Below, piece after piece: positions 7,553 to 28,480 of a stretch of DNA of 64,000 nt. The notes below the pieces were generated by a model. That model ran no database searches. It was not told the origin of the DNA and worked only from the letters and a program-made list of their open reading frames with translations. Source of the DNA: Dysgonamonadaceae bacterium (lineage in GTDB: Bacteria; Bacteroidota; Bacteroidia; Bacteroidales; Azobacteroidaceae); the NCBI GenBank assembly GCA_031269685.1, contig JAISYU010000075.1, positions 1-64,000 of the forward strand, given 5' to 3'. The position numbers and the translations under genes are program-made. Every line of letters starts with the position of its first letter. Position 1 is the stretch's first letter.

Positions 7553-7874
7553 CCTGTAATACATTGCCGCCGAACGCCAGCATACATTGTCAACGCAAGC
7601 CAACATACAGATTCACAGGGTTCTGGCATACATTGTCATTGTAAGCCAGCATACATTGTCATTGTAAGCCAGCATACATTGTCATTGTAAGCCAGCATAC
7701 ATTGCCGTTGTAAGCCAGCATACATTGTCGTTGTAAGCCAGCATACATTGTCGTTGTAAGCCAGCATACATTGTCATTGTAAGCCAGCATACATTGCCGT
7801 TGTAAGCCGGCATACATTGTCGTTGCATACCGGCGCACGTTGTCTTCCCATGCCGGCATAATATATCGTCTAAT
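7553..7874. repeat. 23-bp tandem repeat array (about 14 units)
   Basis: Consensus GCCAGCATACATTGTCGTTGTAA; units start at 7553+23n through 7852, in strict register; edges degenerate. Confidence 0.95.
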
Positions 7875-13901: not shown

Positions 13902-14720
13902 ATGAAATCATTAGACGAAACAAGAAAATCCACAGCAGAGAGTGGAACGGCAACGAATATTGCCAATTATAACAAACTGATCGGTAAATTTATCATCTTC
14001 GGACCGGCGTATAACCCGCAGAACGACCTTTTAAAGATACCGAACATGCAGGAACAGTCTGCCAAGGTTCAACATTCAATCAATGACGTTGATTATTGGC
14101 TCGCGGTGTCAAAGATTGCAGAAGAGAAGAGGAAACAAGTATTCCAAATCCTTCTTCCTACCGTGACGCGCGTGCCGGCTGTGGCGATTGCCCTTGGAAT
14201 GTTGGAATCTTCCGTTAAACATATCAAGGAAATCGTCAAAAAAATGCGCGGCGTCCGCGTAAAACCTATCCTGCCGACGCCTCCGATTGAGGAAATCGAT
14301 CCTAAGAAGTACATTTCCGTCTCACAAACGAGTTTCAGCGAGCAAATAGAGCACATGAACAAGTTAATTTCTTACCTTGAGCAGCAACCTAAATACACGC
14401 CGGCGGAAACAGACCTCAAGATTAGCGGACTTAACAAACTGCGGGACGAGATGGGCGCCACGAACGACGCAGCGATTGAGGCGAACAACTATTTACAGGA
14501 AATGCGCGGCATAAGAGACGAACTGATGTACGCATCTAAAACCGGAATGGTTGATACTGCGCTTGCGGCGAAGGAATATGTAAAGGCAATCTTTGGCGCT
14601 GCGAGTTGGCAATATAAAGAGGTAAGGCACATCAAGTTCAAGAACAAGAAAATCCAGAAGAATATTGTAATCTCCTCTCAAACTTATTCCGAGACGAAGG
14701 AATCACGCGACAAAAACTAA
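13902..14720 (+). CDS. Conserved-looking protein of unknown function (272 aa)
   Basis: Full-length ORF behind a consensus promoter; MKSLDETRKSTAESGTATNIANYNKLIGKFIIFGPAYNPQNDLL...; no family recognised. Confidence 0.8.
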   Translation: MKSLDETRKSTAESGTATNIANYNKLIGKFIIFGPAYNPQNDLLKIPNMQEQSAKVQHSINDVDYWLAVSKIAEEKRKQVFQILLPTVTRVPAVAIALGMLESSVKHIKEIVKKMRGVRVKPILPTPPIEEIDPKKYISVSQTSFSEQIEHMNKLISYLEQQPKYTPAETDLKISGLNKLRDEMGATNDAAIEANNYLQEMRGIRDELMYASKTGMVDTALAAKEYVKAIFGAASWQYKEVRHIKFKNKKIQKNIVISSQTYSETKESRDKN

Positions 14721-14950
14721 GATTTTCTAAAAAAGCCCTCAGCGTTAATCGAGAAGAACTAAGAGTTTCTTAAAAAGACCCAAGAGTTAATTGCGAATAA
14801 CTAATAGTTTATAGAAAATACCTCAGAGTTAATAAATAATATCTAAAAATTTCTTGAAAACACCTCAGAGTTTATAGAGAATAACAAATGGTTAATTAAT
14901 AATAAAGAAGCATTAATACAAAATACCTCAGAGTTGTTGAAAAATAAAAT
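14720..14950. repeat. Degenerate AT-rich 21-bp tandem array (11 units)
   Basis: Units at 14720+21n, e.g. AGAGTTAATTGCGAATAACTA / ATAGTTTATAGAAAATACCTC; begins on the last base of the upstream stop codon. Confidence 0.88.
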
Positions 14951-14990: not shown

Positions 14991-15028
14991 GCGCCGTATC
15001 TAACCGATGCGGCGCTATTTTTTATTTA
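14991..15028 (+). terminator. Rho-independent terminator
   Basis: GCGCCGTATCTAACCGATGCGGCGC stem-loop followed by TATTTTTTATTT. Confidence 0.8.
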
Positions 15029-15060
15029 TATTTCGCTAATTTAGACCTTCTTTCCTTCTT

Positions 15061-16120
15061 TCCTTAAAGTCATTAATGACATTAAAGACATTAACGACCT
15101 TAAAGACTTTAAAGACTTTAAAGACCTTAAAGACCTTAAAGCCATCAAAGCCAACAAAACCATTAATGTCACAAAGCCCTCGCCAATTATCATCGACCCC
15201 TCACAAATTCCAACCTTATTTCATTCTTTCTTTAAAGTCCTTAAAGACTTTAAAGACTTTAACGACCTTAAAGACTTTAAAGACTTTAATGACCTTAACG
15301 ACCTTAAAGACTTCAAAGCCCTCAAATCCATTAATGTCACCGACACCTCGCTAATTATCACCGAGACCTCGCCAATTTTCACAGACCCCTCTCCAATTAT
15401 CACCGCCCCCTCACAAATTCCAACATTATTTCCTTCTTTCATTAAAGTACTTAAAGTCATTAACGCCCTTAACGTCCTTAATCTCTCTAAAAACCTTAAA
15501 ATATTTAATGACCTTAAAGCCTTTAAAGTCCTTAATGTCCTTAATTTCACCAAATATTATGCAAATTTCGACAAGCACCGCACAATTCTCATCGAGACCT
15601 TGCAAATTATGACAGATACCGCGCCAAATATAATCGAGACTATGTTAATTCTCATCGATACTATGTTAATTCTCATCGAGGACTCGCAAATTCTCATCGA
15701 GAACTCGCCAATTCTCATCGAGGACTTGCAAATTATGACAGATACCGCGCAAAATCTAATCGAGACTTTGTTAATTCTCATCGAGACTATGTTAATTCTC
15801 ATCGAGGACTTGCAAATTCTCATCGAGAACTCGCCAATTCTCATCGAGAACTTGCAAATTCTCATCGAGAACTCGCTAATTCTCATCGAGAACTTACAAA
15901 TTATGACAAATACCGCGATAAATATAATCGAGAACTCGTAAAATCTCATCGAGAACTCGCAAAATCTCATCGAGAACTTGCCAATTCTTATCGAGATGAC
16001 GCCAATTCTTACAAACATCTCGAAAATCATAACCTTATTTTCCTGTTTCATCAAAAACATTAAGGTCATCAAAAACATTAAAGTACTTAACGTCTTTGAA
16101 ATCATTAAAAACATAACTAA
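15061..16120. repeat. Composite repeat alternating 9-bp blocks (CTTAAAGAC-type) and 21-bp blocks (AATTCTCATCGAGAACTCGCC-type)
   Basis: 9-bp blocks about 15061-15172, 15233-15340, 15441-15555, 16050-16120; 21-bp blocks about 15173-15232, 15341-15440, 15556-16035. Confidence 0.93.
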
Positions 16121-16190
16121 GAAATGAAGAAAAATCATCAATATTTCTCGAAATACCGATAAGTTGATGCGAAAACCAAAAAAAATTTAT

Positions 16191-16198
16191 TACCTTTG
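16191..16198 (+). promoter_or_regulatory. -7 box TACCTTTG
   Basis: TATTACCTTTGCGGC upstream of the 16233 CDS. Confidence 0.65.
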
Positions 16199-16232
16199 CG
16201 GCGAGTAAATCAATAAATAAACATCAATCTAT

Positions 16233-17135
16233 ATGAAAATGAAAATTTCAAGACTGTTTATCATCACAACGATGATTATTTTTGCGGCAACCTCAAACGT
16301 CACCGCACAAATCAAACTAACATTAAACCCAAAAGTCGGAACATCTTACGAGATGAACGCAGAGGTAAAGTCAACAATCAATACCCTAATCGGTAACAGC
16401 AAAATTCCGATCGACGTGACGACAACACAGACTTATATGATGACCGTTATCGGCAAAACGTCGGAAGGTACAAAGTTGAATTTCATTTATAAAAGGTTTA
16501 CCGTCGGCATATCAGGCATGATGATGAATCTTTCGTTCGACTCGGAGTCAAAAACAGAGCCGACAACCGAAATCGACAAAACGTTGTCCGCAATTATTAA
16601 CCCGATCATAGATAAAACATTCTCAATCGTGATCGATACAGACGGCAAAATCGTTTCTTTAACCGGCATGGACGCCGTCATAAAAAGTATGGAATCATCT
16701 TCCGCCGCGAACCCCGCTCTTGCTCCCGTTACCGGCATGATTAAACAGTTATTCTCCGACGAAACAATGAAGCAGACCTTTTTTCAGTACTTTTCCTACT
16801 GTAACTCAAACGTCATCAAAACAGGCGACACCTGGCAGAAGGATAATACTGTCAATATCTCCGGCATAAAAGGAAAAATCAAATCAAACTACACGCTGAA
16901 ATCCGTCACCGGAACAACCGCGAAGATAGAAGCAAACTCCAACATTGATTTTGACATGAAATCCCAGGGAATCGGAACCGCAACCGGAACACAAATAGAA
17001 TTGATCGAGGTAAATACAGAAACCGGCGTCCCAATCATGCAAAATATCGAGCAAAATATCACTCACTCGAGCAATAACACAAACATTGAGATTGTAAACA
17101 AAGGCGTTACAAGGATAAAAATAAAGGACAGGTAG
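16233..17135 (+). CDS. Secreted DUF6263-like protein
   Basis: Signal peptide MKMKISRLFIITTMIIFAATSNVTAQ, then IKLTLNPKVGTSYEMNAEVKST...; family assignment tentative. Confidence 0.65.
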   Translation: MKMKISRLFIITTMIIFAATSNVTAQIKLTLNPKVGTSYEMNAEVKSTINTLIGNSKIPIDVTTTQTYMMTVIGKTSEGTKLNFIYKRFTVGISGMMMNLSFDSESKTEPTTEIDKTLSAIINPIIDKTFSIVIDTDGKIVSLTGMDAVIKSMESSSAANPALAPVTGMIKQLFSDETMKQTFFQYFSYCNSNVIKTGDTWQKDNTVNISGIKGKIKSNYTLKSVTGTTAKIEANSNIDFDMKSQGIGTATGTQIELIEVNTETGVPIMQNIEQNITHSSNNTNIEIVNKGVTRIKIKDR

Positions 17136-23720: not shown

Positions 23721-24344
23721 ATGGATAAGAAAAAAACAACAAAACCAATCAGCAATGAGCCGCAAAAGTCGAAACTTACTGTGGCGTTAGAGAATCTTAA
23801 TGTAGCCATCGAGGGAGTAAAATCCGTCATTGGCTCGGAAAATGCAAAGAGTCCGATTCCGGCAGAGATAGTCGACGAACTCGTTGAACTGACTCACTTT
23901 TCAAGATACATTTTTGAGGAGTATGCAGTCACTCTTTCGACTGACGAACGGAAACGCCTGTTCGGATCAGGAACGAAAAGTTACGGATTTGTGGAGAAGT
24001 CGTGCGCCAGCGCAGCCGATAACCCGCAATTCCTGCCGCCTTACCTGAGCGTTGAGAAGTTCCAGAATAATTACGGTGACGTTTACCGTAAAAGGACGCT
24101 CTACCAGCAGGTTAAACTATACGAGCAGCAAGTTTACGAATCGCTCCTCGCTTCATCCGACGAGGCTTACCGTGATTCGTTGGATTACTATAATGCGTTG
24201 AAGGACGCTACGAGACGTAACATACCCGACGCGAAAGAATTGCTCGACGAGTTGAAACCGTACTTCCACAGGACGAAACATAAGCCGGAGCCTCCGCTTG
24301 ATAGAGCGGCCGGTTTCAATAACGATACCATCCGCGAGGATTAA
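23721..24344 (+). CDS. Conserved-looking protein of unknown function (207 aa)
   Basis: ORF behind a consensus promoter and before a terminator; MDKKKTTKPISNEPQKSKLTVALENLNVAIEGVKSVIG... Confidence 0.8.
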   Translation: MDKKKTTKPISNEPQKSKLTVALENLNVAIEGVKSVIGSENAKSPIPAEIVDELVELTHFSRYIFEEYAVTLSTDERKRLFGSGTKSYGFVEKSCASAADNPQFLPPYLSVEKFQNNYGDVYRKRTLYQQVKLYEQQVYESLLASSDEAYRDSLDYYNALKDATRRNIPDAKELLDELKPYFHRTKHKPEPPLDRAAGFNNDTIRED

Positions 24345-24471: not shown

Positions 24472-24517
24472 GAGCCATCGTCCGCTGTCAAACACTAAGT
24501 ATTTTATGATAAATATG

Positions 24518-24874
24518 AAACACTTCGAGTTTAACAGTAAACACTTCATGATTTTCATGAAACACTTCGAGTTTAACAGTAAACATTTCATGATTTTTAT
24601 GAAACACTTCGTATTAAACAGTAAACATTTCATGATTTTTATGAAACACTTCGTATTAAACAGTAAACACTTCATGATTTTCATGAAACACTTCGTATTA
24701 AACAGTAAACGCTTCATGATTTTTATGAAACACTTCGTATTAAACAGTAAACATTTCATGATTTATATGAAACACTTCGTATTAAACAGTAAACATTTCA
24801 TGATTTATATGAAACATTTCGTGATTTATATGAAAATTTTAGAATTTAAGAGCAAATATATGCTCCTGAAACCG
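24518..24874. repeat. 21-bp tandem array with 42-bp super-period (about 17 units)
   Basis: Alternating AAACACTTCGTATTAAACAGT / AAACATTTCATGATTTTTATG; units start at 24518+21n. Confidence 0.95.
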
Positions 24875-28218: not shown

Positions 28219-28480
28219 TGTAGATACATCGACACAACTTGCAGCGGTTCATACGCAACTCGTATCTTTGTCTACGCATTTTGCGTAGACAAAGATGCAA
28301 AGTGTGTAGACAAAGATGCAACTTGTGTAGACAAAGACGCAAAGTGTGTAGACAAAGACGCAACTTGTGTAGACAAAGACGCAACTTGTGTAGACAAAGA
28401 TGCAACTTGTGTAGACAAAGATACAAAGTGTGTAGACAAAGATACAACTTGCGTAGAGAAAGATACATCTTGCAGTTGTA
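28219..28480. repeat. 21-bp tandem array with one inverted unit
   Basis: TGTGTAGACAAAGACGCAACT units at 28282+21n to 28450; degenerate units at 28219 and 28240; inverted unit 28261-28281. Confidence 0.95.
28264..28296. repeat. Perfect 15-bp inverted repeat, 3-nt loop
   Basis: ATCTTTGTCTACGCA-TTT-TGCGTAGACAAAGAT. Confidence 0.95.

Follow-up and report, generated by a model that had tools for sequence, protein, structure and literature searches.

A composite 9-bp and 21-bp repeat forms the 3' half of a conserved gene-array unit in Bacteroidota

Tandem minisatellites are well known, and those of bacteria are usually regarded as slippage noise. Repeats tied to a particular gene are found in the plasmid Rep-iteron and ParR-parC systems, where direct repeats of about 20-22 bp lie beside the gene of the binding protein with a spacing of two helical turns, and in RAYT-REP, where the gene is flanked by its own repeats and related repeats occur elsewhere in the genome. 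Porphyromonas gingivalis carries BrickBuilt, a MITE minisatellite with a 23-bp unit, a leader, a tail and inverted-repeat ends (PMC4596501). TAACTGA heptamer repeats occur intergenically and beside genes in Beggiatoaceae, Cyanobacteria and some Bacteroidetes, in the best-studied genome mostly just upstream of start codons (PMC4679880).

The repeat analysed here lies in the window, i.e. the whole 64,000-nt stretch of Dysgonamonadaceae DNA under study, and spans from the stop codon of gene X at 14715 to about 16120. Gene X (13902-14720, forward strand) encodes an uncharacterised, all-helical protein of 272 aa; the next gene (16233-17135, forward strand) encodes a DUF6263 protein and is preceded at ~16188-16199 by TTATTACCTTTG, which resembles a Bacteroidota promoter. 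The initial annotation had described an alternation of 9-bp and 21-bp blocks, which was confirmed by Tandem Repeats Finder and by autocorrelation, the A blocks peaking at 9 bp or a multiple of 9 (0.69-0.85) and the B blocks at 21 bp (0.51-0.77). All parts of the repeat are given on the forward strand. It starts at the X stop codon with a degenerate 21/42-bp array (14715-14885), which is separated from the composite part by the intrinsic-terminator-like hairpin GCGCCGTATCTAACCGATGCGGCGC and T-rich DNA (14991-15015, dG -18.8), most of the array lying beyond this hairpin, 3' of X. Three higher-order units follow, each composed of a junction, a 9-bp block and 21-mers: 168 bp or 8x21 (15036-15203), 210 bp or 10x21 (15204-15413) and 609 bp or 29x21 (15414-16022), their 9-bp arrays being placed by Tandem Repeats Finder at 15064-15150, 15232-15326 and 15442-15544. 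The same program located 21-bp arrays at 15337-15419 and 15584-15996, a 168-bp higher-order period at 15045-15364 (86% match) and, within the long 21-mer block of the third unit (15561-16022), a 126-bp period at 15583-15986. A fourth junction with a degenerate 9-bp tail (16023-16120) completes the repeat. The units are contiguous variants of one 21-mer without the unrelated spacers of a CRISPR array.

When rows of 21 nt are counted off starting immediately 3' of the X stop codon, all blocks fall on a single grid, with junctions at +315, +483, +693 and +1302 and 21-mer units at +462, +651, +882 and +1176 from the stop. Even the 9-bp blocks measure about 105 bp (5x21) each, though 105 is not divisible by 9. 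This grid, the proximal array and the preceding gene X had been missed by the initial annotation, and its analogy to satellites overlooked the main point, as the array belongs to a gene family and is not a free-standing satellite. The 168-, 210- and 126-bp repeats, all of them multiples of 21, support the annotation's suggestion that segments as well as single units were duplicated, and the junction motif it had pointed out recurs exactly at 15205 and 15415 and as a variant copy at 16023. A variant unit said to recur three times is exact at 15602 and 15728, whereas the copy at 15896 differs in two bases; likewise, "many" 21-mers with CGAGAACTCG was generous, as CGAGAACTCG occurs five times and CGAGAACTTG twice. 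The inverted repeat of CGAGAACTCG is specific to the window array, and a palindromic-operator reading based on it was rejected because dyad symmetry is not general across X arrays. Arrays of the 9-bp unit CTTAAAGAC were found 13 times in 400 kb of the window's genome, sampled from contigs picked because they matched and not at random, and nearly none were found in the other sampled genomes. The 9-bp blocks are a local peculiarity that was absorbed into the X array and then multiplied along with it. The alternating pattern arose because array growth proceeded through duplication of segments measuring whole multiples of 21 bp, among them blocks with absorbed 9-bp repeats.

Searching GTDB genomes with the X alignment yielded 45 loci, nearly all in Bacteroidota, with carriers among termite-gut Dysgonomonadaceae, Tannerella and Prevotellaceae MAGs, Flavobacterium, Chryseobacterium, Cyclobacteriaceae, Saprospiraceae and others; two records carry labels of other phyla and may be misbinned. 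The period 3' of X was taken as the best of 54 lags within 600 nt. In the comparison set the strongest lag was 21 or 42 with an identity of at least 0.6 in 36 of 55 loci; the corresponding counts were 1/52 upstream of X and 3/109 among control ORFs drawn from these loci (Fisher P = 7e-19). An enlarged set gave 52/68 loci at any identity and 44/68 at an identity of at least 0.6, counts that include close relatives and are not all independent. The strongest period within 600 nt was a different one in 16/68 loci, including the window's own, where it is 9 bp. Three single-contig genomes (L169-L171) carry X followed by a 21-bp array, excluding an assembly artefact as the whole explanation; the copy number in the window's contig is uncertain because similar arrays lie at or near the ends of other contigs of the same assembly (C68, C110, C23 and C88), and 21-bp arrays may account for part of the assembly breaks seen in such genomes. 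Unit similarity in Chryseobacterium and Flavobacterium is only ~60%, and the 21-nt register is still unbroken; as the array finder favours unbroken registers, we attach no number to the missing indels. Three distant X relatives (L088, L173, L174) have a 21/42-bp array upstream, which may belong to the neighbouring gene.

The register is tied to the gene. One phase relative to the stop codon is common to 10 of 19 loci of the termite-gut group (P < 5e-5), and 8 of the 27 remaining loci likewise agree in one phase (P = 7e-4). Same-strand motif similarity of X arrays was 0.52 for own and 0.35 for distant loci, compared with 0.27 after permutation and 0.29-0.30 for the reverse complement; the orientation of the motif relative to X is conserved. 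The consensus is CAAAATAACACCGTGCACTTG in the window's group, CAAAATaACAcCG.gaacttG when relatives are included and TA.AATTTTAGCAAC.GCAAA in distant taxa, the unit motif drifting widely between species. The AT content of the arrays alternates once per 21 bp (power 0.21 vs 0.10 expected), and in distant loci more similar X proteins go with more similar arrays (Mantel rho 0.34, P < 0.001), while the protein-array correlation within the window's genome was not significant (P = 0.17). A terminator-like hairpin lies between the X stop codon and the array in 27 of 46 loci, with 3.4 expected from shuffles, which argues against a simple 3'-UTR role. The analysis shows that X, usually an intrinsic terminator, and an array on a strict 21-nt grid make up a conserved gene-array unit, with the repeat as its downstream half, and that this unit has a fixed side, a fixed period, a conserved motif direction and a common register and is non-coding. 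The simplest account of the register lock is that gene and array have been inherited together as a unit that changes in whole 21-bp steps.

The non-coding nature bears on the reading of the array as a translated C-terminal heptad extension of X, i.e. a decayed or recoded coiled-coil tail in which 21 bp correspond to seven codons. Indeed, 21 is divisible by 3, the frame of the array mostly matches that of the gene, and a large part of the window array stays open when read in the latter. However, stop codons are as common in each of the six frames as after column shuffling (ratios 0.89-1.03), variation in the arrays is not enriched at third positions, and the terminator intervenes. As neither stop-codon depletion nor codon-position bias, the marks of purifying selection on the frame expected of a protein-coding heptad repeat, was detected, the X arrays are not translated; at the level of selection the two tests reject this reading, which we regard as extremely improbable.

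The strict 21-nt step, the register tied to the gene end and the conserved strand orientation of the motif would also suit a scaffold made of RNA, with the array being transcribed, perhaps from its other strand or through readthrough, and X binding the repeated RNA or the RNA being processed in 21-nt steps. Folding of the minus strand of the window array is far stronger than that of shuffled sequences (z -5.9). The hairpin between gene and array in 27/46 loci speaks against this reading, as do the dyad symmetry of the unit, and hence its hairpin potential, not being general and the lack of a family match in an Rfam search, so that we consider an RNA-level role unlikely.

The window's genome (2.23 Mb, 125 contigs) contains 11 X genes and one fragment, the paralogs being 46-60% identical to the window copy. 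Most have their own 21-bp array directly 3', with a different unit sequence at each; a clear array is lacking at L045 (none seen), L043 (contig end) and L039, which has a short remnant close to the end of its contig. Several arrays contain the interspersed element AACCCGCAGGGTTGAATATAAATAACCCCCAATGAAGCGCAGCGATTGGGGGTTA (L039, +189 to +251 after the X stop; L046, +273 to +335; L006, L007 and L047), which has two hairpins, fills three 21-nt rows and keeps the array grid. At L047:2387-2758, 3' of an X paralog, we observed an 84-bp (4x21) tandem repeat whose terminator-like hairpin CGCCTGATGATGTGAATCGGCAGGCG itself recurs about four times.

Multicopy paralogous families, together with a 551-bp near-copy (92%) of part of the window array on another contig, might indicate a mobile element, with X, Y and Z (the latter two described below) as cargo of a transposable unit and the array as its terminal or target repeat. 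The identities of 46-60% show that the X paralogs are not recent copies, the unit sequence differs per copy, X has no transposase domain, and there was no match in plasmid or phage collections; a mobile-element end is thus very unlikely. A plasmid or phage origin was rejected as neither collection gave a match, tblastn finding none among 72,556 plasmid records.

X belongs to no Pfam, NCBIfam or PADLOC family, and PHROG gave no significant match. Its AlphaFold model is all-helical (pLDDT 80) without a significant PDB match in a fold search, and a DNA-binding domain is not recognisable by Pfam or fold. The pI is above 7 in 45 of 46 X proteins, mostly 8.5-10. Scanning X and Y proteins with PADLOC gave a single weak match (E 0.012) and no assignment to a known anti-phage defence.

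Two further uncharacterised families are accompanied by 21-bp arrays. Gene Z (23721-24344, forward strand, 207 aa) is followed by a 42/21-bp array (24514-24848, forward strand), and such an array is found downstream in 11 of 12 near relatives; more distant Z relatives have it downstream only in some cases and upstream in two. Z was present in 6/6 X-bearing genomes checked and in 0/10 genomes without X and Y (P = 1e-4). Y, a protein of ~220 aa with a helical bundle and a C-terminal Fn3-like domain, has its array upstream, 21 or 42 being the strongest lag in 22 of 25 testable loci of four genomes, 21 of these 22 at an identity of at least 0.6 (Fisher test on 21/24, P ~1e-14); a register lock was not clearly seen in Y arrays. 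Profile comparison detected no homology among X, Y and Z, and X and Y arrays of the same genome do not resemble each other (0.277 vs 0.267 permuted).

In the same non-randomly chosen 400 kb, 35 of ~51 spacer arrays have a period of 21, 42 or 63, and 21-bp arrays also adjoin ordinary genes in X-bearing genomes. The latter, the patchwork look of the window array and the P. gingivalis 23-bp minisatellite, for which no gene-family link is reported (PMC4596501), are in line with neutral minisatellites, i.e. slippage and unequal recombination would enlarge spacer repeats and X, Y and Z would merely sit in permissive places. Neutrality does not readily explain that the side is fixed per family (3' for X and most Z, 5' for Y), that the register is locked, or that the motif is oriented and family-specific. 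Moreover, spacer arrays of sampled X/Y/Z-bearing genomes are mostly 21-bp (20/24), whereas genomes without these genes have 22-23-bp arrays or none, with 21-bp arrays in 1/8 (P = 7e-4, small samples); one carrier, G371, had no 21-bp array within a 100-kb sample. We therefore find a purely neutral origin improbable.

We favour the view, with a probability of roughly 0.4, that gene X and its array provide a DNA scaffold of two-helical-turn units to which a cognate protein, probably X itself, would bind. A 21-bp unit would correspond to two helical turns, so that a weak oriented motif with one AT-rich and one GC-rich half could recur on one face of the helix, and the basic, helical X encoded alongside would be the likeliest ligand. 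The oriented motif, the fixed side, the stop-codon register, the mostly basic X and the occurrence in closed genomes argue for such a scaffold. Counting against it are the lack of a recognisable DNA-binding domain in X, the 16/68 exceptions, the arrays beside ordinary genes, the motif drift, the Fn3 fold of Y, unusual for a DNA-binding protein, and the register lock itself, which may only reflect common descent with whole-unit changes. Y and Z may form parallel gene-array pairs. Tentatively, and at slightly less than even odds, the unrelated families X, Y and Z, which tend to co-occur in genomes, would each be paired with a cognate 21-bp array whose side relative to the gene is fixed, and would jointly constitute, in Bacteroidota, an undescribed nucleoprotein system that generates or maintains such chromosomal arrays. 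A bound array might anchor the chromosome, act as an insulator or regulate neighbouring genes; as a guess, it would serve local chromosome organisation or the control of flanking genes.

Compared with the described systems, the X arrays share with Rep-iteron and ParR-parC a similar repeat length next to a gene, binding being putative in the X arrays, but they are chromosomal, multicopy and located 3', often past a terminator. X has no recognisable Rep or ribbon-helix-helix domain, no replication-initiator gene is indicated by Pfam, NCBIfam, PHROG or fold matches, and the tblastn search of plasmid records gave no plasmid location. RAYT-REP likewise combines an uncharacterised gene with its own repeats, whereas X arrays are tandem, register-locked and not generally palindromic, and X has no Pfam domain, including none for a Y1 transposase. 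BrickBuilt is, like the X arrays, an intergenic, spacerless tandem minisatellite of a Bacteroidota genome, but has one 23-bp repeat sequence and no reported gene-family link (PMC4596501), while the X/Y/Z arrays have a period of 21 bp (in the window 21 bp or multiples), their own unit at each locus and a fixed side of the gene. The TAACTGA repeats are one fixed 7-bp sequence (PMC4679880), in contrast to X arrays with fixed length and variable sequence.

A register-locked array of fixed unit length, free sequence and fixed side that is spread phylum-wide matches no gene-repeat pairing tested. Our search of open-access papers on 21-bp arrays in Bacteroidetes found no description of the system, an earlier description being possible, and the claim of a new kind rests on this search and on the lack of a match to the tested pairings. 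These results suggest an undescribed partnership in which a small family of proteins is paired with a repetitive DNA scaffold. Across the phylum it is the exact unit length, not the sequence, that is kept beside particular gene families, and with unit orientation and register tied to the gene this offers a testable case of a repeat whose length is functional, as well as a first handle on three protein families without assigned function.

Other short-period repeats were observed in these genomes. A 23-bp minisatellite, GCATACATTGTCGTTGTAAGCCA, adjoins the IMP dehydrogenase gene at positions 7626-7825 of the window, and a nearly identical unit occurs at a second locus of the genome, L135:1614-1770; in the sister genome G043 a 23-bp array lies beside an IMP-dehydrogenase-like gene (L231:18231-18374), on the opposite side of the gene. 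An ORF at L127:11075-11716 has a 7-residue repeat (LQNDTED / LQNYTNN) that derives from in-frame 21-bp repeats, the repeat here being inside the coding frame. Finally, the 21-bp array TTGTGTAGACAAAGATGCAAC at 28281-28472 of the window is flanked by a gene of 567 aa and one for a TonB-dependent receptor, and the reverse strand of its consensus unit contains CATCTTTG, which closely resembles the Bacteroidota -7 promoter motif.
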